Part shown: in pieces, positions 29,001 through 61,732 of the stretch
How positions within the stretch are numbered: the stretch's first letter is position 1
Layout of the letters: every line of letters begins with the position of its first letter
Assembly: GCA_947579605.1 (NCBI GenBank)
Contig: OX388320.1
Coordinates: 3,596,001 to 3,660,000, forward strand
DNA length: 64,000 bases
From: Athripsodes cinereus
Taxonomy: Eukaryota > Arthropoda > Insecta > Trichoptera > Leptoceridae
Direction of reading: 5' to 3'
Program-made: the position numbers and the translations under genes
Notes under the pieces: generated by a model
Told to the model about the DNA's origin: nothing
Seen by the model: the letters and a program-made list of their open reading frames with translations, nothing else
Database searches by the model: none

Positions 29001-29012
29001 TTAGATCTGGGT

Positions 29013-32699: not shown

Positions 32700-32739
32700 T
32701 GCCTAATTAAGATAAGAGAGAGAAGAGTTAGTGTCTTAC
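32700..32739 (-). promoter_or_regulatory. CU-rich tract just downstream of micro-exon 2b donor
   Basis: After the donor GTAAGACACTAA the minus strand reads CTCTTCTCTCTCTTATC, then CTTAATTA. It matches in kind and position the tract after micro-exon 2a, and the CTTAATTA block is shared. Either it is shared ancestry from the duplication or it is a retained splicing-control element. Confidence 0.4.
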
Positions 32740-32790
32740 CAAAGTATTGAAGGTTTCTGCAGTCATGTGATTCTGCAAACTGATATTTAC
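32740..32790 (-). CDS. Micro-exon 2b (51 nt, 17 codons), duplicate of 61676-61732
   Basis: On the minus strand TTTATTTTTCTTTCCAG is followed by 51 nt ending in TTG and the donor GTAAGACACT. In phase 0 it encodes VNISLQNHMTAETFNTL. The acceptor, the first eight codons, the donor and some intron on both sides match micro-exon 2a, 28.9 kb upstream, so this is an exon duplication and not a chance match. Both have lengths divisible by three, so either, both or neither can be included without shifting the frame. Because the introns are large and the exons similar, mutually exclusive or regulated inclusion is the simplest reading. The 51-nt size and the regenerated donor (CAG followed by GTAAAT) recall the micro-exons of Drosophila Ubx, but nothing suggests that this gene is Ubx. 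Confidence 0.68.
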
Positions 32791-32868
32791 CTGGAAAGAA
32801 AAATAAACCCAACATTAAAATATATAAAACAAGTATAATTTAAAAATATTCGTTGCTAGTCATTAATT

Positions 32869-33045
32869 TTTTTTTTTTAAAAGATATATCTGGGTTTTGT
32901 TATAAACCCAAATACAACCTTATACACCTTTCACAGTAAGCTAAAAGCTTGTGTCGTGAAAGGGGAGTTTGCCGGCATCTAGGATCGAATCACGGGCCCC
33001 TTGTTCATGAGACCGAGACTCTACCTCCAGGCTATCGACGAACTC
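32869..33045 (-). repeat. tRNA-derived SINE (family B)
   Basis: Same order as 19980-20166: AAAAGATATATCTGGGTTTT on plus, then TTTCACAGTAAGCTAAAAGC, GAGTTTGCCGGCATCTAGGA with the eroded B box, and CTACCTCCAGGCTATCGACG. It begins about 80 nt from micro-exon 2b, upstream of its acceptor. Confidence 0.75.
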
Positions 33046-34080
33046 GCTTTTAAGAGAAACATATGAAAAATCATTGAATAAAAACTTTAGAGTCCAATAA
33101 AAGATCAATAAAAACAGTTGATAAATATATTACATATATTTTATGTTTGATATAGTCCACTAGTTATCCCACTTGTGTAAAAACACATGAACATATGAAC
33201 ATAAATAGCGAAGTATGTTGAGAGAACATAATATGATTTATATATAATATCTTGGCATCAGGGATATTTTGTGAAGTCATATACAAACAGATATTCCTCC
33301 CCACGGCTATGTTATCTGGTTGTTTACTATGTATTGTAAATTTAACAGAAGATTGACGACAAGACAGATCGTCGACAGCCGTTTTATCGGGAATTCATGG
33401 CGATTCAACCATAGAAACCTATATTCAGATCTGATTTGATTAGAAAAACTTTACTTTGATCTCTTCTCTCTTTAAAAAATAAAATAAGAAGAAGAAAAAA
33501 GTTTCCAAAGCCATTCGAAGAGCTTCAAATCGTTTACGGAATTTTTAAACGTTTACTGGGAAAACAAAAGGGATGCGATGCTACCATACTTTATCACAAT
33601 GTTCACCTTTCGCATAAAGAACTTTGTCTTCGGAGGATAGGCTTTGTTTTAAAAGTTCCACGTGTGTGCGGACTTTATTTATTTGCTGATTCTATCAAAC
33701 GATACTGTAGGTACGTATGCAGATATATAGGTAGAAGCAGAGCTTATATAGAAGCAAAGCTTTCAAAGCACGAATTTAAATGCTGACCTTGGGCGAATGT
33801 CGTTTACAATATGCGAAATAAATCACATAGAATGTTACAACTTACGAATATGAAATATTTATCACGCGTCATTTGTAGATATAACGACTATAAAACGAGA
33901 AACTGAATGACACGGAATGAGTATATTAATATATCATGAAAATGAATTGTTTTTGAATATTATAGTCTACTCTTAATAACACCGAAGAGGAGTCAGAGGA
34001 GAGAAGAAACATTTTGGAATCGCGTCAGACAGGATGGAAATCGCGCAAGTGGTTATCAACGTCGGGAAGATTAATCTTAC
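33046..34080. other. AT-rich intron, nothing recognised
   Basis: No gene or repeat family was recognised. Confidence 0.3.
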
Positions 34081-34217
34081 TAATAAATTTTGTTATAAAA
34101 ATAAAATCAAAAACACTGTTTACTTTCACTTGTTATTTATTTTAAATATTTTAGCAAAGATGAAACAAGTGAAAGTAAACAGTGTTTTTGATTTTATTTT
34201 TATAACAAAATTTATTA
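34081..34217. repeat. Hairpin with perfect 54-bp arms and 29-nt loop
   Basis: 34081-34134 and 34164-34217 are exact reverse complements (arm begins TAATAAATTTTGTTATAAAA and ends CTTTCACTTGTT). No mismatches were seen in the arms. Frames crossing it are translations of the hairpin. Confidence 0.9.
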
Positions 34218-35797
34218 AAAATGAACTTTCACCAAGTGACTACCGAAAAAATTAATAGTTTAATCTTACTACTATTATTTTTGGACACAATAGTGTAATT
34301 TACGTGCCAAAGCACCTCAAGGGCTATGTACAATTTGTTTATTAATATGTCGTGAGCCTTATACATGTCAAACAAAAAAAAGTAACTGAATAAAAGTAAA
34401 AGAACAAACAAAAACTATCATTCACAGTAAAACCATATTATGTACATTGCAAATCCTCAAGTCAAGATCAATTTAAAAACAATATAATAATAACTCAATA
34501 ATAAAAAAAGATTATATAATGAGTCATGTTAAGTATATCATAATAAATAAGTAATTAGTAAAAGCACGTCAATAAAATAAAATTAAATACGATGAGACAC
34601 AGTTAAAAAAAAGAGTTCATCTAGAATATGATTCTAAATATTACAATAATATTAACAATAATTTGTCAATTCTAGGACACGTCATAATATAAAATATATA
34701 AATAGACTAAATAAAGACTAAATAAAAAACCTGCTTTTGATAAAATACTTGAAATATCACAGAAAAAAGGGAAACCTTTTCACTACTGGAGATTCCAGGG
34801 TGATTATTTTTTTTATTACTGATGAAATTTAATCAGCAACTTCACAATAATCTGGAATCAAAAACAGAATCACAAAACCATGTATTGTAACATACCTACA
34901 CATGGAAAGTGGCTTAAATTATTGAACTATATATATTACTTTTATTTATTTCTTCTCAAGCCATGTCCATTCTCAATTCATTTACTAAGCCTTTCCAAGT
35001 CTCATTATGTAAGCAATAGTTCTGATCTCCAATGTATTTTAAATAAGTATTCAAAGATACTTCGATTCTTCCGTTACGGATCAAAACCGATAGTGACAGA
35101 GCATTTTCAAGTAAAATGATTTAAATGCATAATTAAATTCTGAAAACTTCAATGCCTTATAATTACAAAGCTAAAATTCGGTCACAGAAGCCAGAGTAGA
35201 CAATAATAATATGAAATAAATGTAGTATAGGAATAACTAAAGCTATCATAGTTCTGATAAGAATGAAGAAGTGGATGAAGGTTAATCTATTCACCATAAT
35301 ATCATCAAATATCAGATTAACAAAGGATTCTTATTATTAAATTCAGGATTTCGAGTAAATTAACTGAATTAACATCAAAACCACAAAAGGTGATATTAAA
35401 ACTAAGCACCGTCACCACCGCGATGTTTGCCTTCCATTGTTATTGGAGTTATCTTGATTGCGACTAATAATAAAATTGAATTGGGAATATTACAAGTACG
35501 TAGTGAATATATAGAAAATATATGAAAATAATTAAATCTATTGTTTTATAAACTACATTACTACATAATTACGTATCATAGAAAACAATATGTAATAAAA
35601 AGGATATTATCATGATGAAGGGTCATTTAAATTAATGTATTGAAAAGAAGTAAACGATTATTTGAATTAATATATTAGAGTGAAACTAACACTTATTTGA
35701 ACTTCCAAGTAACAGACGTTTGATTTTCCGATTTAATACATTGTGTTTGTGTTTTCCAACGTATCATACATTAAACATACATACACGCATTCACAAT
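34218..35797. other. AT-rich intron, nothing recognised
   Basis: No gene or repeat family was recognised. A short unrepeated block with CACCGTCACCACCGCG lies at 35406. Confidence 0.3.
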
Positions 35798-36056
35798 GGC
35801 GGCGAACAGACAGCTGGATGCGAACGTCAATCATCAAGCATCAAGCAAAAATCTTAAATCTTTCGGCGACAATTCGGAGCAATCTCCGAAAAAATATTCG
35901 AATGAATGCCTTCATTATGTCTAATGGACAGGCAACGAAGGCATACATTCAAACATTTCTTCGGATAATGCTCCGAATTGTCGCCGAAAGATTTAAGATT
36001 TTTGCTTGATGCTTGATGATTGACGTTCGCATCCAGCTGTCTGTACGCCTCAATTT
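35798..36056. mobile_element. MITE (family M) with long TIRs, first copy
   Basis: GGCGGCGAACAGACAGCTGG, then ATGCGAACGTCAATCATCAA, is inverted at the right end (…TTGATGATTGACGTTCGCAT, then CCAGCTGTCTGTACGCC). Arms exceed 100 bp around a short core (GTCTAATGGACAGGCAACGA). A related copy is at 57703-57957. Confidence 0.8.
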
Positions 36057-36139
36057 GTGAACATGATGCCAGCTAGAGCGTCGAAGTCGAAACCTTTGAG
36101 AGAAAGAAATACAACACGGCTAACCTGAAACTAAAGACA

Positions 36140-36397
36140 TTATCCGAAGAAATATTTGAATGTATGCCTTCGTTGCCTGTCCATGAGACATAATGAAGGC
36201 ATTCATTCGAATATTTTTTCGGAGATTGCTCCGAATTGTCGCCGAAAGATTTAAGATTTTTGCTTGATGCTTGATGATTGACGTTCGCATCCAGCTGTCT
36301 GTACGCCTCAATTTGTGAACATGATGCCAGCTAGAGCGTCGAAGTCGAAACCTTTGAGAGAAAGAAATACAACACGGCTAACCTGAAACTAAAGACA
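36140..36397. repeat. 258-bp duplicated unit: MITE half with flipped core plus flank
   Basis: From GCTCCGAATTGTCGCCGAAA at 36228 to AAAGACAT at 36397 the sequence repeats 35970-36139, an offset of 258. The MITE core before it (36140-36227) is in the reverse orientation compared with the first copy, as expected after inversion between TIR arms. The copied flank contains GATGCCAGCTAGAGCGTCGA, unrelated to the MITE. Confidence 0.8.
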
Positions 36398-37810
36398 TCT
36401 TATGAAGTTCGCCACGAAAGCCTTCAAACAATTATTCAAAGTTTATAGCTTGGCCATTCTATTCTAAGGACTAATTTGCATAAACCCATCTATGGGAAAT
36501 GCTGTGACAGTATAGATCGATACTCAGTCCCACAGTCGTAGTTAAAACAATCCATAAAAAGAGAAATGTTAACGTAGGTTAACATACAACTCAAGAAAAA
36601 TAGAAATAAATATATTAATCTGCTAAGAGATACAGAGCTTATTTGTTTTATTCTTCCAAAGTGTTGCGGATAGAAAAACGCAAATACGGAAATGCTTAAA
36701 AGTTTATTCGTTGCATAACCAAAAAAAGGCCTTGTTATCTGTTTTTGTTTACTGTATGTAGAAAGCGTGTAGCTGTCTATTGGATAGTATAATACTGTAA
36801 AAAGTAATAGTGGTAATGGTAGGCGCACATCGACAGCGGACGTTGTCGCTTAAAAATATCGATTTGGAATACGTAATTAACAGACCCAACCAACAATGTA
36901 TAGTAAGTAGCACCCAGCACATGGAGTAAATAACACTAAATTATTTAATTAAATTTCTGATCACACTTATTGTAACACGAATATTCAGTATCTGAAAACC
37001 CAAATAGTTCAGTAATAATTTTAAAGCGTAGCATTACTACTACTAGGTACATATTTTTTCGCGGACTCCGAGTCTCACATCGTCAGTACCTAACTGATGA
37101 TAATAGGTGAATAAACAAAATGAATTTGAAGTTCGTTGAGATTTTCAGTGGTGGCGCAGAGGTAGGAAAAGTGGGGTCATATTAGTTTCAGGCATGTACC
37201 TCTTGGAATTCAGAATCATTACTCATTTTACTAAATAATATAAAATAAATTGGCACAAAGTTAATTACTATTATTATTCTCCTTAAATTTCCTTTGCACA
37301 TCATTACAGCTTTTGGCCAATGTGATGTGCAAAGAGACAAAATTTATACATAGCAACACAATATTCAAAACAAAAAAACAAAAATAAACAAAAACAAACA
37401 AGCAAGCAAAAGATCACCACAGAATGTTCGTTGACTCAATAAAGGCAACAAACTCACTGTAGGACAGAGAAAATAAGTCACATTTCTGAGCCAACAAATT
37501 AAAAAATACCATTGCCCTGTTGGCTGGAGAATTCATCGCCAAATTCGTTCTTCCATGAGTAGGATAGAACAACAAATACCCCCGCGATCTATTGTTTTGT
37601 TAATGTCAATACACTCAATAAATATTGTACATTGTGCATCTTCTTATCTGCTTTTACACTTCATTTTCAATCAACCTGTGCCCATCTCGGGAGCTCGGGG
37701 CAAGAAAAAATAATCCCCTTCATTCACCGCGATGTCTTTGTAATGTCTATATTATTACATTCATCAATTATTGCGTGGGTGCACACGTAGTAGAATTCCA
37801 TAATTAGGTT
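36398..37810. other. AT-rich intron, nothing firmly recognised
   Basis: GCACATCATTACAG near 37297 faces TGTGATGTGC near 37320 as a short hairpin. The block 37430-37590 looks like a repeat tail, but no family was matched. Confidence 0.3.
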
Positions 37811-37958
37811 AATTGAAACAAGTGTTTCTTTATACTTCAACTTATAGTGATCAATAACTTATAATAAAACTTCTACTATTAGTGATCAATAACTTATAAT
37901 AAAACTTCTACTATTAGTGATCAATAACTTATAATAAAAAGAAAGACTTGTTTCAATT
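37811..37958. mobile_element. Small MITE-like unit enclosing a 35-bp minisatellite
   Basis: AATTGAAACAAGTGTTT at 37811 is inverted at 37942-37958 with one mismatch. Between them, units starting AGTGATCAATAACTTATAAT lie at 37846, 37881 and 37916 (last one partial). Confidence 0.7.
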
Positions 37959-38410
37959 TATCTATCCTAAACAAATTCAATGTTTTCTAGATTCATAACA
38001 CCGTGCAGCAAAAACAATGATATACAGATAAAAAAATATTTAAAAGAAACACGTTCAGGTGTATGCAATACCACATTTCTGCAACCATTCCTTAATAAGC
38101 TTATTGATTGATTTTTACCTGAGCACCTTTTGACTGATATTCTAACATTCTTTTACCATAATCATTATTGAATATGGTAACATGATAATGCAATTTTCAT
38201 TTAATTAAACCTTGTATTATGCGCATGTCAATGTTTACTATTAAATTCCTCCGATTAAAAACTGATAGATAGCTGTAAATATACCTATATACATACTATT
38301 GCCTACTGATCTCTTAAGACGTTCTGCAGGCATAGCATAGTACAGAATATTATTGATAGTTGGTAGATACTTGCTCACACTAATCCAGTTTTCCAAATAG
38401 GTAAGTAAGC
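37959..38410. other. AT-rich intron, nothing recognised
   Basis: No gene or repeat family was recognised. Confidence 0.3.
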
Positions 38411-38418
38411 ATGTAATC

Positions 38419-38817
38419 ATGGACGGACCGGACTGTAGTAGTGACCTGCCCGCTGTGAGAAGGGTTTGCTTGCAAGATTATCCCGATATTGGTTCCCGTG
38501 TTGCGTTACGACGTATTTGGGTCACTGTTTCAGCCTTATCTGATACACCAAATCGTATACATAGATACTATCACAGTTATTATAAGGATAGCGTTCTGCA
38601 ACAATATTTCAAGTATAAGAAACGAGCTTCCTTCCGAAACTGTGGATTTCCAAGACTTTCGTTCTTGAGAAGTGAATTTCCAGCTTTATTTAGCATTCAA
38701 CAATATTTATTCAACGTACATCAAAATCAAGTGTATTTTTCAAAGTACGCGTACTTTGAAAAATACGAAGATAGAATATGTAAGACGAATCTAGACGTTT
38801 ACTATAACATCCACTAG
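38419..38817 (+). CDS. Unrecognised open frame of 132 codons, doubtful
   Basis: A plus-strand ATG opens 132 codons (MDGPDCSSDLPAVRRVCLQD…). The first half has less AT-biased codon use than the surroundings (PDIGSRVALRRIWVTVSALS), then a Tyr-rich stretch (HRYYHSYYKDS). I recognise no domain, signal peptide or membrane segment. Against it: a perfect 34-bp palindrome (38733-38766) sits inside the frame, there is no obvious promoter, and it lies in the presumed intron of a minus-strand gene. It could be a remnant of a mobile-element protein, a nested small gene, or chance. Confidence 0.2.
   Translation: MDGPDCSSDLPAVRRVCLQDYPDIGSRVALRRIWVTVSALSDTPNRIHRYYHSYYKDSVLQQYFKYKKRASFRNCGFPRLSFLRSEFPALFSIQQYLFNVHQNQVYFSKYAYFEKYEDRICKTNLDVYYNIH
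38733..38766. repeat. Perfect 34-bp palindrome
   Basis: GTATTTTTCAAAGTACG and its exact reverse complement meet at CGCG with no loop. Confidence 0.9.
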
Positions 38818-38819
38818 AA

Positions 38820-40345: not shown

Positions 40346-40351
40346 TACTAC

Positions 40352-40580
40352 TACTACTACACCATCACGGCATTTCCCACAAGCGGAATAGCCAGCAGAA
40401 CAGCTGCTTGTAATAATAAACATGCAGGCAATCTTCTCCGTGCTAATAAAAAATTAACAAATTCAGGATGTGTAGAAACCTCATAGTTGATATACCTTTA
40501 TTTTTTCGAACATCTGCCTTTTTCAGGACACTCGAATACTTATGGAAAAGAGTGAGACACCAATTCTTTACCAAAAAATA
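40352..40580 (+). repeat. Family D interspersed repeat
   Basis: (CTA)n then CACCATCACGGCATTTCCCA, CAGCAGAACAGCTGCTTGTA, ATCTTCTCCGTGCTAATAAA, TTTTTCGAACATCTGCCTTT, GAGACACCAATTCTTTACC. Confidence 0.7.
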
Positions 40581-40899
40581 TCTTAGTCCGAATAAACTTC
40601 TTTATCCTAATTTACACACATATATCCCAGGCCCGGGGTGGGATGGGTGCCATTATTACACTCCGCATAGGATATCAAATACCTTCATGGTATAGACTCG
40701 TAACGCATTACAAATTTTCTCAGAGAAGATGTTCCAAAATTAACAATATGACAATAAATGTTTGGTGTTTCACTTCATAACATTGTGATGGTAATGGTCT
40801 CCCTCGCTCCGATACAGAAGTAGTATACATCGTATGTATATCTGATAGTCATAGTATGTCCATGGCACCAGGCAATGAATTAACTTCTCATTCATTTAC

Positions 40900-41100
40900 G
40901 TACGTTTTCGATGCCATGTAAAAAGCAGGTGTTCGAAAAAATAAAAACATTTTACATCTTAAATTCAGTGATAAGGTTTGTCACCCATCTTGAACGTCTA
41001 AGTTTTCGTTAACACGGAGCGGACGGCTTGCATTTATATTGAATGCGGCCGGTTTGCTGAGTACCCCACTTGTGGGATATGCTGTGGTGATAGTACAAGT
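40900..41100 (-). repeat. Family D interspersed repeat
   Basis: On the minus strand it reads CACCACAGCATATCCCACAA, GTGGGGTACTCAGCAAACCG, then GATGGGTGACAAACCTTATC and TTTTCGAACACCTGC. Confidence 0.65.
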
Positions 41101-41629: not shown

Positions 41630-41962
41630 CGTTACATCAAAATTTATACAATTTCTCATACACGTACGTTGATTTCTCTTACTTAACACAGGGCCGTTTC
41701 TTGAAAAATTGATCTACGTCGTCAAGCCACATGGTACTTGAACGTCTGCAATTTCTCACACCCCTTCTTTCAGATAGATACACCCTTTTCGTCGTCCATT
41801 CGCTCCACAAGTATAAATAATCGCAAATTGTTTAATCCAAAACACATCTCTTGCATTTTTTCCTCATTCACTTAATATCCTCATTCCTCTTCCTATCACG
41901 CAACGTTTCTTCATTCAACCAACCATTCTTCTCAGCAATCGCATCTCCACTGCAATTTTTTA
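41630..41962 (-). pseudogene. Eroded copy of the LINE family at 24151-24858
   Basis: On plus, GTTGATTTCTCTTACTTAAC, CTTTCAGATAGATACACCCT, TCGTCCATTCGCTCCACAAG, then AATATCCTCATTCC and CAGCAATCGCATCTCCACTG follow 24260-24560 in order. Deletions and an insertion break the frame. Confidence 0.7.
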
Positions 41963-41984
41963 TATTCTAATGATTTATCTGTTT

Positions 41985-42132
41985 CTTTTTATAAACCCAA
42001 ATATAACTTTAAATACCTTTAACAGTAAACTAAAAGCTTATGTGGTGAGAGGAGATTTTGCCGGCACCTGGAATCGAACGGCGCACCTCTTGTGCATGAG
42101 GTCGAGAATCTACCTCCAGGCCACAGACGAAC
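41985..42132 (-). repeat. tRNA-derived SINE (family B), diverged
   Basis: TTTGCCGGCACCTGGAATCG with ATCTACCTCCAGGCCACAGA repeats 19980-20166. The poly tail side is shortened. It directly follows the eroded LINE copy. Confidence 0.7.
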
Positions 42133-43830
42133 TATTCGTGATTCAAATTCCGTTTGCACAAATAATTAGTGAATGAAAGATATTGTTTTGCTTCATGTGT
42201 TCTCAAGAAAAACGTTTTAAACGAATAAAAGTAAGTGAGTTAGGGACTAAACACAATGAACAACTGAATTAACTGGTTTGCTGGTAGTAGTTCATTTTCT
42301 ATGGGATCTGTTTTCAGTATTGGATTATGAGGTACATTATACACAACAGTAGAATGAATCACAGTTGTGTTGGTCAAGCAACTACCGTCCGCATTCCAAG
42401 TAGTTTTACCTTCGTCATAGAAATAATTGAATTTCCGAGATAACCAAATACAAGGAAATTGGAAAGACATCAAGCACCAACATTTATTAGAAGAGACATT
42501 GATATATAAACCTTACAAAATCTCTGGCCGACTATTATTACAATATCTACCTTGAACTCTTCTTTAATAGACAATAAATACTGAAGTATATGAAAAAGTT
42601 TTCGAATACCTTTCTATTGCAAAAAAATTATTCAAATTTTATTTTTTACTAAATACTTCTTGATCATCCTGAAAATTTTATATCACACATCTTATCGACT
42701 TGACTGATCCAAGATTATATAAAAACGAGACATCAAAAAGTGAAGAAATGTTTAAAGATATTTGACCCGTGCTCAAAGCTTGCTTGCAATGAAATGTTAA
42801 GAATGTCGCAAAGTGGAAATGAGATTATTTTCTAATAAACAAACGAAAACCTTCCGAATAAAATAATAATATCAGAAGTGCCTACAAACCTGTAAAATAA
42901 AGGAAATATTTATTTGAGAATATTTCTGCTTTCAACGGAACAAAATGCGAAATAAAGATGTCGTCGCGATAGACGTTTATTAAAACGATAAACTAAGAGA
43001 CAACAGCGCTGAATGAAGTGTCGAAGCGGAGAAATTGATGAAAAACGAGTTGATCATAAATAAAATCAGAGTATCATGAGATAATAAAATAGAAGGGGTA
43101 TGTATGTAGGTATATCTCTGAGATAATTTCCTTGCGGAAGTAGTTGTTGTCGGTAGGTAAATAGTTTATTCCTTCCACGAGTCACGAATGAAATCAACCT
43201 CACGCTCCATGGTGGATGACATCCCGCAGTCTAATTTAATTAATGGCGGATCAATTAAGGAATCCGGGCAACAGAAAGGCGAAGGAGGTGGCAGACCCGC
43301 TGAGCGAGGAATACTAAATCAAAAAGCGACGACGTGAATATTCTAAGACAAAAATATTCATGGTTGGTTATATTCAAACGGTGGAATAAGAAAGCGTGCG
43401 CTACGTCAGTTCTGCTGTACCAAGGAACAAGCTACATACCTACATTATAATATTATGTATCTGTAGAATTGTACAGAAGTGTTAGTAGGTGGAATCCTTT
43501 TCAATGGAATAATGCAGGTCATGGAAAACGAATTAAGTGGGTTGGTCATACGGGATGTATCCAGATATACGTTTGGGAAAAAGGTTTATTTTAAAGACAA
43601 ACCTTGTAGGTAGGTAGGTACCTACTTATCTTTCTACTCAAGAAAACCTTTGGTCTTTATGAAAATAAAAATGTTTTATTCAAAATTTTATTCTACTTGA
43701 ATGAAATAAAAAAAACCATCCTAAAAACATATGCCCTTAAATTTTCAAATTAAATTCAAATTAAATTTGAAAATTTCCAAACGAATTAATAAACGTTGAA
43801 CAGATTCTAAAGTGGCAATCTACTTTTACT
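42133..43830. other. Intronic stretch with a less AT-rich block at 43190-43340
   Basis: The block contains TAATTTAATTAATGGCGGAT and GATCAATTAAGGAATCCGGG, with several TAAT-type homeodomain-like core sites, but no open frame. The rest shows nothing recognisable. Confidence 0.3.
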
Positions 43831-43963
43831 GCTATACCATCAAGGTATATTCCACAAGTGGGGTATCCAGGGAATAACCTACACATAAGGAACATGTAGA
43901 ATGTCCTCTCCGTGCCAATAAAAAATAAGATATCCAGAATGGGTGGCATCGCTGAATTATAGA
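43830..43963 (+). repeat. Family D interspersed repeat fragment
   Basis: TACCATCAAGGTATATTCCA, CAAGTGGGGTATCCAGGGAA, CTCTCCGTGCCAATAAAAAA, then CAGAATGGGTGGCATCGCTG. It abuts the 3' end of the LINE at 43966. Confidence 0.65.
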
Positions 43964-43965
43964 TC

Positions 43966-44584
43966 TTCTTCTTCTTCTTTGCTTCAGTTAGGACTATTCT
44001 CGGAGCCTGCTCCTGGGAGGTGGATGTCCAACTGTCCCTCCATCGTTTAGGTGGCCTTCCTGGGGGTCTGTTTCCTGTCATGCGTTCATCTGCTGCTATT
44101 CTGACCACTCGATCTGAGCCCGCCCTCCCCACATGATCTTTCCAGAAACGTCTTCTTGTTCTGCCCAATCGCACAACATATTCGACATTACAGATTCTTC
44201 TTATTTCTGAATTTCTTATTTTGTCACGAATAGTTACACCTGCGATGGGTCGTAGAGTTTTCATTTCGGTGGTTCTAAGAAGGCTTTTTGTTCTGGTGGT
44301 GTCAGCTCTTGATTCTATGCCGTATGTCATGATCGGTCTTATGCAGGTCTTATAGATCCTTACTTTGCTCTCTCTCAGCATGTCTTTGTTTCTCCATACA
44401 GCACTCTTCAAGCACCCAGCTACGACGGCAGCCTTGTTTGCTTGTTCTCTTACATCGTCAAAGAGGTTATTGCTGCTGGAGATCTCGACACCCAGATACT
44501 TAAATCGCATCACTTGCTCTATGATTTTATTGTCGATTGTAAGTTTGCATCGCACTGGGTGCCTCGAAGTGACTATGATCATTA
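43966..44584 (-). pseudogene. RTE-type LINE reverse transcriptase C-terminal part, frame intact
   Basis: On the minus strand about 200 residues are continuous: KLTIDNKIIEQVMRFKYLGV, then EISSSNN, NKAAVVAGCLKSAVWRNKDM, VRIYKTCIRPIMTYGIESRA, RTTEMKTLRPIAG and GNRPPGRPPKRWRDSW, ending in TEAKKKKK. FKYLGVxIS, YKTxVRPIMTYGxE and GRPPKRWxD are hallmarks of lepidopteran RTE elements after the polymerase core. The catalytic domain and endonuclease are missing (5' truncation near 44584). The open frame formally runs on to 43761 but there it reads antisense through a family D repeat, so its last 70 or so residues are not LINE. A (GAA)-rich tail marks the 3' end. Confidence 0.85.
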
Positions 44585-47500
44585 TAGATATTAATTGTAA
44601 AGTGGAAATGCAGGTTGAAAATAAAAGAAAAGTTATCTTTTGAAAAAAAGTATGATGTAAATCGTTTGAAAAAAGGAATGTTTGTATTTACTGTTTTGGG
44701 ATTCAAAATGAAGATAGAATAAGTGCATATGTGATAATATCTATATCCAATTATTATTATTTCATAATTCGAAAACTAGGTATATGTTTAAACATAATCA
44801 TTGTATTAGATATAAGTAAAATAGATGTTTTGAAATTACAACATCATTGAATAGGTAATTAATAAAACCGACAACATACACAAAAATTAATAATTCATTC
44901 GTACAGTGTTAGATACGATATAGAATAATGTAATGAGTATGTAAATAATATTAATGAAGATATACAATACAAACAAATAAATACAAATTTTGTGCACACA
45001 ATAATAATAAATATATTCTAATTCAGCCAAATAATACCATAAACATGGAGGTAAACAAATTGTGAACATTGAAAATCGTTCTTGAAAAGATGACGATAAT
45101 ACCGCACATTTGAATACTATATTACCATAAGACAAATAAAATGAGAGGCAGAACAATTTATTCCTTTAAACACTATCGTTCTTTAGAAGGTACCTACAGA
45201 TGTGTGTGTATCACGTACTAAGTAGGTACCTATGCATATATTATAATAATGTACTGTCGTATCAAAGTCTCTTGTATTCTACATACCCACATAAACAGAG
45301 GAAGCAAGGAGAAATTAACAATATATAAGGAGAGAAAATATGTAGGTACAAGACATATGATAAAAAAGGCCGAGATGAGCGAAATATTAATTATTGATTG
45401 TCTGGTCTTCTTTGGAATTCCTTCGTCAGATCATGTGACTATAAACATAATATCATTTTTTCTTTTCCTTGTGGTAGTGATTTTTGGCCAGCAAGTTTTG
45501 ACCCGATCATCTTTTGTCAGTCCTTTCATGCTTTGTAAATTTTGTATGTGATTTCTTTATTCTTAAATTTAGTCTAACGACGAAACGGAACGGAAAACTA
45601 TTTATTTTCTTCTGATAAATTGTTTCTTCAATAAAAATTGATTAAAACTCTATTGCAATGTTTCCAATTTAAAATTGTTCAAAAATCTTTAAACTTTTTA
45701 AAAAACTTAAAAGCTTTGTGCTTCACGTGATAAACAGAAATATTGGACGCCACACAGACCTGAATTCACGTTGGCTCTGGAGGGTGAATAAATTTTGTTT
45801 CAAGAAAGAATGAAACACTTAATTTTGAGAATAAATCTGATAAACACGCGTAATACAGGTAGTATAAATAGTACCTAACGCCATGCCACAGTCAAGCATT
45901 TATTATGAAGTACCGACATCAAATAATAGCTGGTGATTTGTATAATATTTTTCTAGGTACTTACGTACATAATCAAATCCTGCGACATGGCAATTGACCT
46001 ATATAAAACAATGGATAATTATAGTAGAGGCGCACTAAGGTGCGATCAATCCCCGACAAAGAACTACATAACATTTAAACTTTCAAACCCTCTAGTTCAT
46101 TTTAAGACTTAAAAACATTTTTTTTAAATGATATTTTTGGGATAGTCAATACCTTAAATATATTCCTTAGCACCGTTAAAATGGATTAGATATGGAAAAA
46201 ATTTAACTTGTGTTAGGAATATACAAACGTATAATACACAAATATTTGGGATGAGTATAAAACCAAATTGTTTTATTATATCAATTTGATTGTAATGAAT
46301 ATATAAGCTCTGATACTTTTGAAACACGAACAGTGTATGAGAAACCCGGTATTCTACTCTTCTAATAATAATAAAAAAAGTTTCATAAGTAAAATACACT
46401 TACATAGATAAAATGCTGATGTTTTCATGGTGAGTATGATAAGTATTTAAACTTCTAACTGACCTACATTCGTATAAAAATATTTACAAATTGATATCGT
46501 GCACTCAAAACTGTTTGTAGTATTTGATTGTTTCGTGTATACAGTAATTGTTTGAATAAGAAGCGAAATGAATATTCGGTAACAATTCGTTATTTGGCAT
46601 AGTTTTACTATCCGGCACCTAGCCGATCCGATTTAGTTAAACTAACTTTTTGTGCAGTAAAGATTTTTATTACTATAACCATTAGGTATATTATAAAATT
46701 TCTTTCATCTTATTTTCAATTGAATGAAATAGTCTTCATCGAAAAAAAATCTTAATCTTATTGAAGAGAACTGATATTTATAATTCCTGGAAATAGTTTT
46801 TACTCAATACAATACTCCCTTGAAACGTTTGAGGTACTTAAAATTCTTTGATTGAGAGAATAAAATCGACCCGTGTAAGATGAACGAATATACTGACTGA
46901 TATATGATATCATAGTATCCGTTTTAGAATCTCGCCGGTTTCATTACAAATCTGAATGCCTTAATAAATGTCACGCTTGTTACGGAATAAAAGGAGAAGA
47001 AAAAATACGAACTTTTATTTATTCTCCTTTAAAAGCTTCACCCGATTGATTAAAAAGAATAATAAAAACACATAAAAATGTTTTCCAAATAAACGAAAAA
47101 GTCGAGTTGGGATTAATGACGTTTCCGATAACAAGAAAATTATTGTTTTTCTTTTATTATTAAGAGAGGGAATAACAATAATAAAATAAAAAAAGGGGGA
47201 GGGAAAACTTGAGTTGTAACTGAAAAACGTTCATTGTATACTAGCTTTAAAACCGGCTTCATGCCAGCCTACTCGATTTAACAAGTAGGTACACAAAACA
47301 TATTGAAATATAAATATTTTTGACAAATGAACTATGTAACTATACATTTTAAGTAAAATCCCAATTTTTATTAGTAGCAGTTGCAAATATCTAAACACAT
47401 CTACATATGTGCTTTGAATATCGCACGTGAAATGCACAATATAAATGTAAAATATTAAATTTCTGCCGTGGCGTAATTAGATTTGTAACATTTTAGTAAA

Positions 47501-51100: not shown

Positions 51101-51370
51101 GCCGACTATAATGGAAGAGTTGTCTATACATATAATATGTTATGATTGAATGCGTGTAAGCGGGGAAACTTATTATGTTTCTTTAAGTTATATGATGATC
51201 ATTGTAAGCTGAATTCTATGTTCACTATTTACATACAACCCACATACAAAGTGAACACCAAATGAATCACATAATCAATTTATTAATTACTTATAAAAAA
51301 GAAGATACCGTTCTTTTCCTTATAATAATTGCCAATCTATTTTTTACACCGTAACGTACCCACAATAAAA
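48111..51370. other. Long AT-rich intronic stretch with one hairpin
   Basis: At 48124-48161 CGGATATCTCAGGAGT faces ACTCCTATTTATCCG, a bulged hairpin with a GGAGTTGGAGACTCC tip. The 61-codon frame at 49306 (SSLLDKAREIFDRKRNPLHK) has no recognised homology. Nothing else is seen. Confidence 0.3.
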
Positions 51371-51375
51371 TAAGG

Positions 51376-52028
51376 AAATGTCGTGGTTAAAAGGCACTCA
51401 GTTGGCACCATAGAAGAGGATTTTTTCTTAACTATATTCCTAATACAAATGTCAAGAGGTAGAAACAGTATAACACGTAGATATTTATTCATCATGGCAT
51501 CAGCACGATAACGAGTTTCGTGAACGGAATGTCGTGGTTAAAAGGCACTCAGTTGTAACTCAGTATTAACTCAGTATTAACTCAGTTGTAACTCAGTATT
51601 CACTCAGCACAATAACGGAAATGTCGTGGTTAAAAGGCACTCAGTTGGCACCATAGAAGAGGATTTTTTCTTAACTATATTCCTAATACAAATGTCAAGA
51701 GGTAGAAACAGTATAACACGTAGATATTTATTCATCATGGCATCAGCACGATAACGAGTTTCGTGAACGGAATGTCGTGGTTAAAAGGCACTCAGTTGTA
51801 ACTCAGTATTAACTCAGTTGTAACTCAGTATTAACTCAGTTGTAACTCAGTTGTAACTCAGTATTCACTCAGCACAATAACGGAAATGTCGTGGTTAAAA
51901 GGCACTCAGTTGGCACCATAGAAGAGGATTTTTTCTTAACTATATTCCTAATACAAATGTCAAGAGGTAGAAACAGTATAACACGTAGATATTTATTCAT
52001 CATGGCATCAGCACGATAACGAGTTTCA
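51376..52028. repeat. Compound minisatellite, about 2.6 long units with nested short repeats
   Basis: ATGTCGTGGTTAAAAGGCAC starts long units at 51378, 51621 and 51886 (offsets 243 and 265). Each has a constant part of about 150 bp (GGCACCATAGAAGAGGATTT … CACGATAACGAGTTTC). Then the opening is repeated and runs into a variable array of 10-11-bp units (GTAACTCAGTA, TTAACTCAGTA). Array length accounts for the offset difference. The last unit ends after GAGTTTCACG. Confidence 0.9.
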
Positions 52029-55000: not shown

Positions 55001-56050
55001 ACAATAACGAAATAATAATATATCCGTCTCAATTAATAACAAAGTTGTTTAATGTTTTACATATTCATGCGCTATCTGACATCAAACTTACTTAAATACA
55101 ATATTATATAATAGTATTAAATGAACGGAAATATGGAAAAACATGGGGCTGTGTGAAAAAATGAAAAATAAAATTATATAACAAAACGAGAAAAAATAAC
55201 GCCGAGTTCCCATACACCGAAAACTATACTGATACAATGTTGGGAGGGAACGAAATAGCAAGAACTGTGATTTTTAGGGTAGATTCTTGTGTATTTTGAA
55301 ATTATTTACTGTTATTAATTGTGTTTTAAATATTTGGAGAAACTTTAGCGGGAATAATGTATTAAATTACACAAAAATAAGTAAAATGTATTGCAATCGA
55401 TTTTAGTCAAGTAATTTTGGTTTGAAACAATTGGAACTGAACACTCTTGAATTCATTTACTTTATAACATTTTTTGGTGAAAATCAACATTGAATAACTA
55501 ATTAATATATCGATTGGATGATGCATACGTAGAGTTTTATTCTATCCAGTGTTCCCGATACAAGCACTTTAGGGCGGAAGAGAAAAAAGAAAGTTATTTT
55601 GTGAAAGCTTACATCCAAGAGTAATTGATACATTGTTTCAAATGCTACTGCTACTTTTCATCGAGTTCCAAATATTTCTACAAACAACAACAAAACAATA
55701 AAGCTTCGCCATTCACACACACGCGATCTGTCAATCAAACCCACCTATCAATCTTCCAGCCAACCATCACCCCGTCTAGCTAACATTAAAATACAGCCCG
55801 CTGCTACCAAAGACAGTACATAGTACCTACCTGTTATATTACATGACGTTTGACAAACCGTTTTGTATATCAGTTGTTATTTTAAAAATAATTGTGTATA
55901 GATGTTACTTATACCACTAGCGATAGTGGATCAAAAAATATGTATTTTTATATGAGTTTCATAATATTATTATTAAATCTGGAAAATATATTTTTTGGCA
56001 GGATATTGAATTAATAGTGAGTACTGCATAACGAGTACTACATAACGCGA
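52029..56050. other. Long AT-rich intronic stretch, one possible retrotransposon tail
   Basis: Sequence around 54450-54560 ends in (AAATA)n and could be a plus-strand LINE 3' tail. Open frames at 52000, 52795, 53797 and 54053 show no domain. Nothing else is recognised. Confidence 0.3.
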
Positions 56051-56054
56051 TTTA

Positions 56055-56480
56055 AGCGTAAGGAAGAACCTTACTAAAGCCTTTGTATGGAGCATTCTGC
56101 TTTATGGTTGTGAGACGTGAACCATCAGCAAGAGTGAAAGCGGACGGTTGGCGGCCTTTGAGATGTGGTGCTACAGACGCATGCTTAAGATCCATTGGTC
56201 GGAACACGTCGAAAACGAAGAAGTATTAACCAAGGCAACTTCTTAAGAGAATCGGCCAACAACGAGCTAACTGGATTGGCCACAACACCAGGCACCCAGG
56301 ACTACTCATCGCCATCGCGGAGGGTAAGACCGAGGGGACAAATGGCAGAGGCTGACCAAGAGACGCGTATATGGACCAACTGAAGATGGCATGAACTGTG
56401 GCTCATACGTAGAGCTGAAAAGACTGGCTGAGAATAGAGACGAATGGAGAAGAAAAACTAAACTCGTTGCAGACCAATCC
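56055..56480 (+). pseudogene. RTE-type LINE remnant, frameshifted
   Basis: The frame begins NLTKAFVWSILLYGCET, then a stop, then TISKSESGRLAAFEMWCYRR and MLKIHWSEHVENEEVL. It shifts frame into a segment ending DEWRRKTKLVADQSNGL. LLYGCETW, LxAFEMWCYRRMLKI-W and the closing DEWR-x-x-V-A are diagnostic of the RTE/BovB-like C-terminus. At least one stop and one or more frameshifts make it inactive. A 3' scrap of the same family lies at 9555-9625. Confidence 0.75.
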
Positions 56481-56699
56481 AATGGATTGTAACTTATTAT
56501 ACTACATAACATAATGCAGGCATTGGATTGGATTGAATAAGTGAGATGATATATTTTAAATTTGGATAATGTTCAAAACAGAGTGAATTAAACACCAAAG
56601 AAGGAGAAATTAAATTGGTTTATGCTTGTTTTAATTTTTTTGTCCACTTGAATAATAAATCTTTGGAAATTTTGAATTTTTTTTCGTAAAACATCATTT

Positions 56700-56830
56700 A
56701 GATTTTTAAAATTTTCGGTTCACTGATGAGGAATGCCACCCATTCTGAATGTCAATTTATTGGCACATAGAAGACGACTTACATGTTTATTACATATATT
56801 TGGTGTGCTGGCTGTCTCAATTAAGGAAAA
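56700..56830 (-). repeat. Family D interspersed repeat fragment
   Basis: On plus GGTTCACTGATGAGGAATGC, CACCCATTCTGAATGTC, ATTGGCACATAGAAGACGAC, then TGTGCTGGCTGTCTC are the family read backwards. Confidence 0.6.
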
Positions 56831-57021
56831 AGTCGTAATGTTACGAATGAATAGTTTTTTTTCCATTTTATTAATTTATTTCTAAAAAAATTAACATTGT
56901 AAAAAAAGAATACCTTATACGCAGTGATTTATTCAAAGAATAATCGTGTTTAATTGCAAAAAGGTATGATAAAACTTGTGGTTAGATTCGTACATTGATA
57001 TAACATAACATAACATAACAC

Positions 57022-57212
57022 GTGTAGACAATTCACACAGACCGAGCTAGTCCCAAACTAAGATATGAATCTTGTATTATGGGTACTAACACGGCGATAC
57101 ACATATACAATGCACTAAACACATATACATGTAACACCCAGACCCAGGACAATCTGAAAAAGGTCATTCTTCATTTTGCCCTGGCCGGGAATCGAACCCG
57201 GGACCTCGTGAC
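57022..57212 (-). repeat. tRNA-derived SINE (family A), head truncated
   Basis: On plus GTAGACAATTCACACAGACC through AACACCCAGACCCAGGACAA to GGGAATCGAACCCGGGACCT, then CGTGAC, matches 7430-7640. The A-box head is missing, replaced by a (ACATATAATT)n stretch. Confidence 0.7.
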
Positions 57213-57702
57213 ATATAATTACATATAATTACATATGTTTGTTATATGAACGGGTATACATTGAAAGGTTGTGTGCAATGAGTTATTACTTGTAGCAAGT
57301 AGTTAGTACCGCTTACCTGAATAGCTGATGGTGGTAATGAATGTGTGTAAACACAGAACGTAGGTACCCATATGGGTGCTTTCTCGGGAAATACGTAATA
57401 TACACAACAACCAGTTCAACTGTCAAAGTGACAGATAAAAATGTTGCCATTACCGCGGTAGTAGTTGAATAAGTACGTAAGTGGTGCTTCTCGTATATTG
57501 TAGTAGGGTAAACAGAGCAGTATGTGGCTATGTCACGATTTTCACACAAATATTGATGTTCCAGTAAAGCATACATTTGAAAAATCAAGGAAACTGAACA
57601 AGCGAATTGAAAATAATGTATGAAAATAATCTCTTATTATTAACACTTTTAACTTCGTTTAATCCTTTTTTCCATTTAACATACTACAGTAACTTCTTCT
57701 TA
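57213..57702. other. Intronic stretch with a possible juxtaposed acceptor-donor
   Basis: On the minus strand CAGCTATTCAG is followed directly by GTAAGCGG (junction between 57317 and 57316). The polypyrimidine tract is weak. The 91-codon frame ending at 57313 shows no domain. Confidence 0.25.
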
Positions 57703-57957
57703 TGCTGGGTACACACAGCTGGATGCGAACGTCAATCATCAAGCATCAAGCAAAAATCTCAAATCATTCGGCGACGATTCGGAGCATTCTCCGAAGAAAT
57801 ATTCGAATGAATGCCTTCGTTACGTCTCATGGATGGGTAACGAAGGCATTCATTGGAATATTTCTTCGGAGAATGCTCCGAATTATCGCCGAGAGATTTG
57901 AGATTTTTGCTTGATGCTTAATGATTGACGTTCGCATCCAGCTGTCTGTACGCCGCC
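57703..57957. mobile_element. MITE (family M) with long TIRs, second copy
   Basis: CACACAGCTGGATGCGAACG, then TCAATCATCAAGCATCAAGC, is inverted at the right end (CGTTCGCATCCAGCTGTCTG, then TACGCCGCC). It is close to the copies at 35.8-36.3 kb, with a simple, unduplicated structure. It shows that GGCGGCG is the true family terminus. Confidence 0.8.
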
Positions 57958-58059
57958 TAAGATGAATCTGGATATGAAATTAACACAAATACAAACTAAG
58001 ACACTTGCACAGTATACAACACTCTTGTGTCATGAAGTTGGTGTAGATAAAAAATAAGT

Positions 58060-58128
58060 GAAAATGAACCCGGGATCATTCGATTGAAGTCCGAGATTAA
58101 ACCATCAAACTAACGAACACTCGAGGCA
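58060..58128 (-). repeat. Possible old tRNA-like SINE head
   Basis: The minus strand reads TTCGTTAGTTTGATGGTTTA, then ATCTCGGACTTCAATCGAAT, then GATCCCGGGTTCATTTTC. The GTTAG-x-x-x-GATGGT start and the CCCGGGTTCA stretch resemble the A and B boxes of an Asp/Glu-type tRNA, but pairing is incomplete. Confidence 0.3.
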
Positions 58129-58819
58129 ACAGTTTGTAATAAGATTTACCGATTGCCAGTAACTGCACTATTTACTTTACATGGTGTAGGTAGCCTAATG
58201 CAAGGCAGTGAATTTTACGAATGGCAACAATAAATTTTCGCGCAGGTATCTGCACGCGGTGTGACATTAAAAGATTTAAAAATCATTTCTTTACAATTTC
58301 AAAACGCTAAACATAACTTAAAGTGTTTATTTATTATTTTCACATCAACAGCACACTACAAACAATATATATGCATAAAAACAAACAATGCAAACAAAAA
58401 ATGGTATCAATATATCCCTATTTATAAGTGCACACAAATTAAAAATTCATATTAAGTTTGAAGCCCATAAGGTTGTCAGATTTAAATAAAAGAATAGTAA
58501 AATGATAAAAAAGCTACCACACTAGACAATAAAAAAAACAATATAAAGAAGAATAACAGTTATCTGTTCTTACAATAGGAATAATTAGTCAGTATATTTT
58601 TATAAATTATCCAGATTAACTGTCATTAACTAAATTAACCTAACCTACCTACCTGACCAACACACAAAAAAAACATGAATTAGTGTTAACTTATTATCTA
58701 TAGTACCTTCATAGAGTTTTCAGGAAAGGAAACTATTTCATTCAATTTTTAAAACAGAACAAAGACAATATATTCTAAATACGTTCAAAAATAAATACTC
58801 ACCCCCCCCCCTCCCTTCA

Positions 58820-58875
58820 TAAAGGTATATCCTTTTTGTCATCTTTTCTTCATCTATTCGCTCCACAATAAAATA
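58820..58875 (-). pseudogene. Tiny fragment of the LINE family at 24151-24858
   Basis: AAAGGTATATCCTTTTTGTC, then TTCATCTATTCGCTCCACAA resembles 24365-24412. It follows a run of ten C at 58802. Confidence 0.35.
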
Positions 58876-59366
58876 TTATATTAGAAAAATAAATCATTTG
58901 AAGTAACAATGTGCGTGCTTGTTGCAGTTCTTCTAACTAACCTAATAAACGTACTCAAAGAATTACCATAGTTATGTGGAGCAAACATAATAATACGAGC
59001 AATTTATATTTTTATTAACTACTTCAGTAAGTTCTACGGAAAGGTGTAATAAATCTCGTTGCAACATACAACATTTCAAAACAAAAAAGAATGCCAAGAA
59101 TCCTCTTATCATTCAATCAAAAAATGTTTAATAATAAAAATGGCATCCGAATAGAGGACTGTGGGGAGGAATGTTCCGTGGTAGAGTCCGTTTCTACACT
59201 CACCGCACCCTGTTGGATGCATTCGGAACGATCAGGGTGGCAGAAAAAAAACATCGGGGTGTATGTTATATATGACGTCCGATTACCGTTTGACACCTGA
59301 CACAAGAAATACTTCTGGGAATGAGGGGACAATACATTGCTACTTATTCGGAACACTAAAATATTT
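58876..59366. other. Intronic stretch, nothing recognised
   Basis: A less AT-rich block at 59150-59290 has overlapping frames on both strands, but no domain. Confidence 0.3.
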
Positions 59367-59540
59367 AATAAATAAAACAAGCGTTTTATTCTACTAATGA
59401 TTTAATTTGTGAGAGAGACGTCTTTCGTCTTATGAGGACATTGTCAATCATGAACCAGATTGACAATGTCCTCATAAGACGAAAGACGTCTCTCTCAAAA
59501 ATTAAATCATTAGTAGAATAAAACGCTTGTTTTATTTATT
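59367..59540. repeat. 174-bp fold-back element (about 82-bp arms, 8-nt loop)
   Basis: AATAAATAAAACAAGCGTTT at the left is inverted at the right end, and GACGTCTTTCGTCTTATGAG near the loop is also inverted. The loop is about 8 nt (ATGAACCA). Only a one-base difference in length and a few mismatches were seen near GTGAGAG/CTCTCAAA. Confidence 0.9.
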
Positions 59541-61589
59541 TCGATATGGAATTCTACTACCTAAACACCGACACAGTGACTAAAATATTTACTTACAACG
59601 ATCTTTTACTGTATTTGTATCCAAAACCTCATATATTTATGTATTATTTACTTAGTACTTTACGCATTCGGTCTAAGTCTTCCCATTCCATTATTCATTT
59701 ATTTCTAAAACTTTATGATAGGGATAATAAAGGTAATCGTAAAAATCAAAAACAAATAAACATTATTATAAAAGTATAATAAACAAATTAAAATGATATG
59801 AAAATTAACCAAGACATTGAAGGACCCACCGTCCACCCGGATACCGCAGAAGTCTGGGGATGAAAATTAACCGAAAAAAATCGTTTCTTCGCCAAACATT
59901 TATATCAGTTTCATATTTGTAATCACTTTTATGAATTTAACGACTCTTTGATACTTGGCCAACACAATATAAATTGTCAATGTAAAAAAAATCTGGATGA
60001 TTCTTCCTTTTTACTCAACAATGTATGTAATTGATTTTTTGGTATTAGTTTTTTTTTTTTTTACAAAGACCAACATACCTAATTTATCCATTTTTTGGTC
60101 CCTGTGAGGGCTGCCCCTGGCTCGCTCATCTGAGATCCCTATAGGGAGCCCATGATGAGTTTGATAAGAAGAAAGAGTGATGTGTGATGTCCATAATAAT
60201 TTAAAATATATTGTGAAAATTGTCAAATGTACCTATTGTAAGAAGGGAAATAAAAGAATTTCATTTCAGTTTACCATTGTGAAATTACATACTGGTGTAT
60301 GTTTGGTATGCAGTGTGACTTATTTGTTTAGTATAAGTTAAATAAATAAATAAAAAATCAAAATGTCATGAACATATTCCAAATAAAAGCGTTTCTTTAG
60401 TATTGGGGCATTATGCAAAGGTAAACAGTATGTAGGCTCAATGGTACACACAACAATATTCATAGAATATCTACAAAGTTACGTGACATTACGGGGTAGA
60501 GTTTAGTTGTCGAATGTCATGCGACGATTATTGTTTTGTTTCGTTTGGTTGCTATTTTGTTTTACTTTTTAACTGATACTATAATCTACTGCTATAATAC
60601 AGTACTAATATAATGATTCCATGTACTGGTAACGGGCGACGGACAAAGGAACGTCATTTCCGTGTTATGCAACATGGGGATTATTACATGCTTATATTAT
60701 GTAATAATACAGCAAGTAATATTTATGAAGTTATGTTATGTGTCATTGTTTTTAAAATATTAAATAGTAACGTGACATTTGTTGGGTAGAACGGGTTTAT
60801 CAAGGTGTACTGTATTGTACCCGTATACTAGAAATTATTAAAAATAAAATTGATAATATATGATCATATTTATAAATGAATAAAAAAAAAAATAACAAAT
60901 AACATGAATTGAAGTCCATAATTTGTAAAGCACTCGAGTTCTTTATCAATAATTTTAGGCTCGGAAAATAAAGAAATAATTTGAATTTGGAAAAAAGCAC
61001 AATATTTTCAATGCCGCTTACTTAGAAATACATATTGCACAAATTTGATAACAAGGTATTTTAAAAGTTTAATTTATAATAACTCGAGAAAAAAATGATA
61101 TTGACGTAACTGTTTAAATTATATGTTAATTTTTATCCTTTTTATCAAAGTATTGGAAAACCAAATAACAGGCAACCGATACAGAGATGAATAGATTTGT
61201 CGAAACTCAGAAAACCAATCAAACTAATCTCCTGTAAATACTGTGCAAAATGCACAGCACGTGGAGATGCGTCAAAAATATCCTCCATACTTCATACGAC
61301 AAAGCACTTGTTATGAATATATTAAAGAAATACCTACATAATATTTGCAAATCTAAAAAGTAAAGGCTAGTAAAATGAACTTCTTAAATTTGCTGATTCA
61401 AGTTTCCTAGAACAATTTTATTAGCAGTACTGAATAACTAACCAGTTTCTCCGTGGGATTTCTACCTACGCATATAAACTTAAAAGAAAATTTCCTTTGA
61501 TATAATGTAGTAAGTGTGAATATTAGATAAGATAACATGCAAATAATATCCTAGACGAGCATTCTCATATATAAATCAAGAGGCAGTTA
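59541..61589. other. Intronic stretch between the fold-back and micro-exon 2a
   Basis: A T-run at 60048-60061 and a (AAAT)n tail near 60341 suggest worn retroelement ends; no coding frame is assigned. Nothing else is seen. Confidence 0.3.
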
Positions 61590-61675
61590 ATAATTAAATA
61601 TTTACTATTAATTAAGACGATCTGATGGAGTTATAGTGATGGAGAGAGAGTTAGAGATTAATAATAGTATCTTAC
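61590..61675 (-). promoter_or_regulatory. CU-rich tract just downstream of micro-exon 2a donor
   Basis: On the minus strand the intron begins GTAAGATACTATTATTAA, then runs into CTCTAACTCTCTCTCC within about 35 nt. The equivalent position after micro-exon 2b has a similar tract. CU-rich elements beside exons are classic binding sites for PTB-type splicing regulators. The tract is seen; the regulatory role is inferred. Confidence 0.4.
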
Positions 61676-61732
61676 CGAAGTTGTTAATGTGTTTTGAGTC
61701 AGAGAAATATGATTATGCAGACTGATATTTAC
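61676..61732 (-). CDS. Micro-exon 2a (57 nt, 19 codons), duplicate of 32740-32790
   Basis: On the minus strand the polypyrimidine tract CTTTCTCTTTCTTTCCAG, with a branch-site-like CACTAAT 20-odd bases before it, precedes 57 nt ending in TCG, followed by the donor GTAAGATACT. In phase 0 it encodes VNISLHNHISLTQNTLTTS. The first 24 nt match the other micro-exon at 21 of 24 positions; two of the three differences are synonymous (TTG/CTG, CAC/CAT) and one changes Gln to His. The rest is diverged in sequence but keeps a multiple of three. It lies 1,262 nt downstream of exon 1 and joins it in phase 0. The first six exon bases, GTAAAT, follow CAG directly, so splicing to this acceptor regenerates a possible donor. 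Function unknown. Confidence 0.68.

Follow-up and report, generated by a model that had tools for sequence, protein, structure and literature searches.

Two similar candidate microexons with the anatomy of recursive splicing in a putative giant first intron of Athripsodes cinereus

The window considered here, a 64,000-nucleotide stretch of the Athripsodes cinereus contig OX388320.1, carries on its minus strand two short, mutually similar exon-like cassettes, A and B, which lie 28.9 kb apart downstream of a credible first coding exon. The question raised by this locus is what such a pair is for: does it supply two alternative peptides, one or the other of which follows the same N-terminus, as a sequence-only reading of this DNA had proposed, or is it connected with the removal of the intron in which it lies? 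Our tentative preference, held with slightly less than even confidence, is that A and B are paralogous recursive splicing exons (RS-exons) in a giant first intron, similar to exons m1 and m2 of Drosophila Ubx and probably translated when kept. The features on which the argument turns are listed below.

62995-63090, minus strand: credible coding exon 1, 32 codons in phase 0, ending CGCAAG before the donor GTAATT, peptide MVANTQSTSMTNNNNNGNSDIDMESLEEMLRK
61722-61743, minus strand: predicted ratchet point A, acceptor TTTCTTTCCAG (61733-61743) directly joined to the exon start GTAAATATCAG
61676-61732, minus strand: cassette A, candidate microexon of the RS type, 57 nt, VNISLHNHISLTQNTLTTS, donor GTAAGA from 61675 down
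61643-61650, minus strand: CTCTCTCT tract, candidate splicing-regulator site, 25-32 nt downstream of donor A
32780-32801, minus strand: predicted ratchet point B, acceptor TTTCTTTCCAG (32791-32801) directly joined to the exon start GTAAATATCAG
32740-32790, minus strand: cassette B, candidate microexon of the RS type, 51 nt, VNISLQNHMTAETFNTL, donor GTAAGA from 32739 down
32715-32722, minus strand: CTCTCTCT tract, 17-24 nt downstream of donor B

Much of the anatomy given by the sequence-only reading is borne out by the sequence: both cassettes have the positions and lengths that it reported, they share an acceptor and the GTAAGA donor, and their lengths are multiples of three that fit exon 1, which ends in phase 0. 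In the phase set by exon 1, from which A is separated by 1,262 nt, the cassettes are open over 19 (A) and 17 (B) codons, and stops are found in both other frames of A and in one other frame of B. What had been overlooked is that both exons start with a donor sequence, GTAAAT, right after the acceptor (CAG/GTAAAT, the slash marking the junction). The AAG at the end of exon 1, when joined to either cassette, reads AAG/GTAAAT, i.e., a regenerated donor whose upstream half comes from exon 1, and a second donor, GTAAGA, lies about 50 nt further on (after 57 nt in A and 51 nt in B). The presence of a donor directly behind the acceptor in both exons points to recursive splicing. According to the passages of PMC8605326 that are drawn on here and below, in fly RS-exons an exon of about 50 nt is recognised together with its downstream donor, its splicing regenerates a donor at its own 5' end, and then either of the two donors is used.

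This juxtaposition is rare in the window. A simple rule, demanding at least 12 pyrimidines of 16 followed by YAG/GTRA[GA]T, picks out exactly two places on the minus strand, which are where A and B start, and nothing on the plus strand; in shuffles of the minus strand the mean was 0.1, and two sites were reached in 2 of 200. When sites are ranked by a ratchet score, a score of 9 or more is attained by three minus-strand sites (in falling order a site at 2356, A and B) and by none on the plus strand, the shuffles giving a mean of 0.355 and reaching three sites in 1 of 200. The full form, in which such a ratchet point is followed 20-120 nt on by a donor scoring 3 or more, is found only in A and B, with none on the plus strand, a mean of 0.015 in the shuffles and two or more in 0 of 200.

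Could GTAAAT be nothing but a Val-Asn codon pair, unused as a donor, at the start of ordinary regulated cassette exons that have been duplicated? We consider this unlikely. It would agree with the good splice sites of A and B (acceptors ranking 27 and 47 of 2853, donors 57 and 43 of 3762), with their open, frame-neutral reading and with the CTCTCT tract downstream of both donors, which resembles the surroundings of regulated microexons; of the 21 places where CTCTCT starts on the whole minus strand, two follow donor A and two follow donor B. Regulators of the PTB/hephaestus type bind tracts of this kind, and those at A and B are candidate sites for them. However, A and B are the only exons that start with GTRA among the 29 candidate exons of the minus strand (20-150 nt, acceptor score at least 5, donor score at least 2.5), in which they are not outstanding by combined splice strength (9th and 14th) and in which an open frame with a length divisible by three is not rare in itself (seven cases, A and B included). 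Moreover, the exon start has been kept more strictly than the rest, the wobble positions of four codons included, and a plain coding exon needs no such constraint.

The distribution of similarity between the two copies likewise supports recursion, as identity peaks over the acceptor and the regenerated donor and decays inside the exon. A run of 23 identical bases (23 of 23 nt) crosses the acceptor TTTCTTTCCAG and the exon start GTAAATATCAGT, and the next 12 nt agree at 9 positions. In the first 24 nt of the exons 21 positions match, and of the three changes two are silent (CTG versus TTG and CAT versus CAC) and one is not (CAT versus CAG), just as the sequence-only reading had counted them. 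Taken whole, the exons are clearly alike (2 of 1000 random comparisons were as good); after nt 24 they are weakly alike (41 of 1000), identity being regained at the donor, and their lengths differ by an indel.

The same reading had also spoken of shared intron flanks. This is correct for about 25 nt upstream, for the donor and for the CTCTCT tract downstream; further out, with one scoring, the resemblance is marginal or at background. Among 1000 random comparisons, a few of which may themselves overlap the cassettes, the observed score was reached upstream by 76 at -125..-25 and by 917 at -225..-125, and downstream by 48 at +13..+113, by 641 at +113..+213 and by 183 at +213..+413. Under looser scoring the 400 nt downstream gave 112 versus a 95% level of 84 for random pieces, so that the duplication may take in some of the downstream intron; for the 400 nt upstream the value was 49, versus a random mean of 52.

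The number of copies bears on the suggestion that A and B are intronic decoys or remnants, that is, splice-like copies of an unrecognised repeat to which the spliceosome pays no attention. A 27-nt core, in which the variable places are written as Y and N, hits the window twice and, at up to 3 mismatches, none of 100 shuffles; a third copy of the 24-nt start was not found within the window at up to 6 mismatches. The intron is indeed full of repeats, including a three-copy one whose copy at 32865-33044 lies 75 nt upstream of B; nevertheless, only two copies of the cassette occur in the window, on the strand and in the order expected from exon 1, their splice signals have remained intact while the upstream flank has decayed, and the full signature was never seen twice in the 200 shuffles. 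We regard such an origin as scarcely credible.

If A and B are RS-exons, the course of events could be as follows. Exon 1 would be spliced to the CAG acceptor of A, which would be recognised via its GTAAGA donor. The resulting junction AAG/GTAAAT, whose letters are observed, would then serve as a new donor. Use of this regenerated donor would remove A from the mRNA, and use of GTAAGA would leave 19 codons in it. The same choice would be repeated 28.9 kb further at B, with 17 codons if kept. By recursion each cassette would be kept or removed independently, the possible outcomes being none, A, B or A+B, and the reading frame is kept in all four combinations.

It is at this point that the choice between peptides lacks support. 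Mutually exclusive exons, of which exactly one is used, would fit with the homology, similar length and common phase of A and B, features by which such exons are predicted (PMC3228551, in the part consulted) and of which homology and phase are found in Dscam and Mhc as well. Unlike the exons of Dscam and Mhc, A and B are not clustered, they start with a donor, and they are frame-neutral together. The distance of 28.9 kb puts steric exclusion out of the question, and nonsense-mediated decay would be unable to enforce exclusion since every combination keeps the frame; of the devices that might forbid joint inclusion this would leave RNA docking. We therefore dropped mutually exclusive splicing as the best reading and hold it to be very improbable. 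What stands of the regulated duplicated cassettes proposed by the sequence-only reading is two homologous, frame-neutral short exons after a credible exon 1; the either/or use of their peptides is unsupported.

As to whether the cassettes are ever retained, the passages of PMC8605326 describe fly ratchet points as an ultraconserved acceptor-donor motif with a short exon of about 50 nt, and cryptic RS-exons as removed and generally out of frame. A and B might accordingly be zero-nucleotide ratchet points, whose cryptic exons do no more than define the recursive sites and never stay in the mRNA, the open frame being due to chance and common descent. This is a serious possibility, though to our minds a doubtful one. 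Its splice anatomy would be identical to that of expressed RS-exons; in flies there are about ten times as many intronic ratchet points (>500) as expressed RS-exons (<50; PMC8605326); the exon donors of A and B score below the regenerated donor; and their wide divergence after nt 24 is the behaviour of fly cryptic exons and not of Ubx m1 (PMC8605326). On the other hand, both cassettes are multiples of three and open in the phase of exon 1 despite the indel, and the three substitutions within the first 24 nt, two of them silent, also speak for coding. Both would be open and divisible by three by chance with a probability of 0.031 if they are independent, and of about 0.17 if B merely inherits the frame of A (0.50 for A divided by 3). 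A rough weighing, with a prior of 1:10 borrowed from flies, gives expression a weight of 0.76 with independent frames and of 0.37 with an inherited frame. The open, frame-neutral reading in the phase set by exon 1 favours expressed exons, and on balance A and B are probably sometimes kept in the mRNA.

Several observations weigh against expressed RS-exons in this locus or against recursion as such. Frame neutrality is weak evidence, since the other 27 candidate exons include 5 that are likewise open and frame-neutral, and the interiors of A and B have diverged in the manner of cryptic fly exons and unlike Ubx m1. The looser rule YAG/GTRA, which has one site on the plus strand, gives two sites in 31 of 200 shuffles and is for this reason not significant alone. 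All donor, acceptor and ratchet scores were computed with approximate matrices. The ratchet score alone yields three sites, the top one of which (2356) has no exon donor. Since one cassette is a copy of the other, their motif may be one observation and not two. The regenerated donor, GTAAAT, lacks the +5 G of the optimal GTAAGT. Finally, the geometry is not that of flies, in which recursive segments are typically 9-15 kb long and the sites tend toward intron midpoints (PMC6110457, in the passages used here): the opening segment would measure only 1.26 kb, the remaining ones would far exceed the fly range, and A, 1.26 kb after exon 1, is off the midpoint tendency.

The third site mentioned above is recorded as follows.

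2348-2376, minus strand: tentative third ratchet point, TTTTTCTTTACAAACTGCAG/GTAGGTTCG junction, CTGCAG/GTAGGT, score 11.0, top of the strand

It lies 30.4 kb past B, a spacing much like that from A to B. In the 20-120 nt that follow, no donor reaches a score of 3, so that the RS-exon part is absent and the site can be considered only tentatively; it may be a product of chance.

The phase argument depends on exon 1 (MTNNNNNGNSDIDMESLEEMLRK), the N-terminus of which reads MVANTQSTSM. Its donor ranks 18 of 3762 on the minus strand by the approximate matrix, and G or C is the third base in 13 of its last 14 codons; the G+C content of 2-kb pieces across the window is 28-37%. A protein search run at three assumed protein lengths produced a single match in a database of 5.77 billion sequences, namely, at about 143-455 residues, the open reading frame (ORF) P0002 (190 residues, on a 7,640-base contig, E 2.5e-6); nothing was obtained at about 330-1050 residues (one candidate, no score), and there was no match at 715-2275 residues. 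P0002 holds MVQRRTSSMTNNNNNNGNSDIDMESLEEMLRK followed by V, and in the pairwise alignment with exon 1 all 15 residues of NSDIDMESLEEMLRK are identical (15 of 15) up to the donor position. The V after the shared residues would be the first codon of an intron starting with GT. An independent ORF together with a GT-compatible next codon makes it credible that exon 1 is a coding exon.

As for the identity of the host gene, Pfam with E up to 10 gave no family for exon 1 and none for P0002, PDB matches began only at E 0.47 for exon 1 and at E 0.22 for P0002 (the top one being an asparagine-rich linker), no relative was present among 60 pattern matches of P0002 in IMG/VR, six peptide words resembling exon 1 had no match in a search of paper texts, and Rfam over the whole window gave no family. 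A Pfam scan (E up to 0.1) of the three minus-strand frames of 1-32739 and 32800-62801, with stops written as X, returned 0 families; this is a soft negative because no positive control was run and small exons could escape it. With no Pfam match in these stretches, orthology of the host gene cannot be claimed.

From the donor of exon 1 to the end of the window there are 62,994 bases, and the first intron would extend at least to that end, i.e., over about 63 kb or more. Among fly introns longer than 40 kb, 63% contain a recursive site of high confidence, and recursive splicing is enriched in first introns (both PMC6110457, in the passages used).

The closest known parallel to RS-exons of the kind proposed here is Ubx of Drosophila, where two short frame-preserving exons, expressed RS-exons of 51 nt each, lie in one giant intron (of about 73 kb, as against about 63 kb or more here), the exon start is the donor regenerated on splicing, and skipping or inclusion gives isoforms (PMC8605326). 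There use is shown by RNA, whereas here it is predicted from the sequence. A further contrast is that the two exons here are copies of one another, and the passages of PMC8605326 on m1 and m2 contain no such statement about those. Ubx m1 is conserved between flies over all 51 nt, and A and B agree fully only at the start, which sets a comparison between species against one between copies (PMC8605326).

The host gene, whose exon 1 starts with MVANTQSTSM, is not Ubx, the N-terminus of which is different.

The fly intronic ratchet points with cryptic RS-exons (kuz, Bx, Ubx-RP, chinmo) have the same juxtaposed acceptor and donor, a further donor about 50 nt on and a long intron (PMC8605326); unlike A and B, which are in frame, open and provided with a regenerated donor GTAAAT, those cryptic exons are described there as generally out of frame and absent from the mRNA. 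Anatomy of the same kind is further reported for the expressed RS-exons of msi, heph (RP1, RP2), ps, sm and mub, heph also having two (PMC8605326). A and B are probably further members of the class of recursively spliced microexons; in addition, they are copies of one another.

If the paired RS-exon interpretation is correct, the strengths of the donors may connect the two choices. By the approximate matrix AAG/GTAAAT scores 5.8, and the GTAAGA donors of A and B score 3.4 and 3.9; as the regenerated donor is the stronger one, skipping should be the default. Once A is kept, the regenerated donor at B becomes TCG/GTAAAT, whose score of 2.1 is below the 3.9 of B's own donor, and the inclusion of A should therefore favour that of B, which is the opposite of mutual exclusion. 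The resulting scheme, an RS-exon duplicated within one intron with the inclusion of A and B coupled through the junction (TCG favouring the keeping of B, AAG its skipping), is a speculative one and, as a whole, quite unlikely. Against a simple prediction from scores, the outcomes of fly reporters were not all explained by donor strength alone, and flies mutant in kuz at times made use of weak regenerated donors at a later point (PMC8605326, in the passages used).

The window has other features in its own right. The minus-strand segment 55092-55148 (57 nt, a multiple of three) is the top candidate exon by splice signals, has two stops in phase 0 and may be a decoy or a poison-type exon. The 180-nt repeat near B occurs at 32865-33044, 41954-42133 and 19986-20165, its copies being 63-79% alike and one of them ending 75 nt upstream of the first base of B; part of it reads like a tRNA-type B box. 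In the interval between A and B there are related hairpin elements at 35795-36313 and 57694-57966, one pair of which is 90% alike in direct orientation and also self-complementary, and their pairing could loop out about 21 kb of intron. A large interrupted inverted repeat spans 6731-15307, with arms of 1064, 416, 319, 201 and fewer nt, 85-100% complementary and with 3.8-8.4 kb between them; ARAGORN calls a tRNA-Lys(CTT) in each arm (7593-7667, minus; 14371-14445, plus). Three ORFs (24151-24831, minus; 29001-29696, plus; 43761-44687, minus) resemble by eye fragments of retrotransposons of the long interspersed nuclear element (LINE) type; among five ORFs scanned with Pfam none rose above the curated cut-off, and two weak matches to domains of unknown function (DUF) lay below it. 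At 51369-52027 there is a tandem array with units of about 243-265 nt and embedded 11-nt repeats of the ACTCAGT type.

Expressed RS-exons number fewer than 50 in Drosophila, and prior to the reporters of PMC8605326 their recursive splicing had been validated only for Ubx, according to the passages of that paper used here. Among the matches listed in our literature searches none dealt with recursive splicing in moths or butterflies and none treated recursive splicing and duplicated exons together, which is weak evidence of absence in both cases; PMC9962485, the one listed paper in which words for recursive splicing and for moths or butterflies both occur, mentions recursive splicing once, in a passage on a locust. 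If our interpretation is true, another intron with two such microexons, here one a copy of the other, would establish duplication as a way in which RS-exons can spread. With the same start and different 3' parts, A and B would be a natural paired experiment on keeping versus skipping, and they would make it possible to ask if an earlier splicing choice biases a later one. If the coupling, too, were true, the junction would carry the memory of a prior splicing choice across 29 kb, and no trans-acting factor would be involved.

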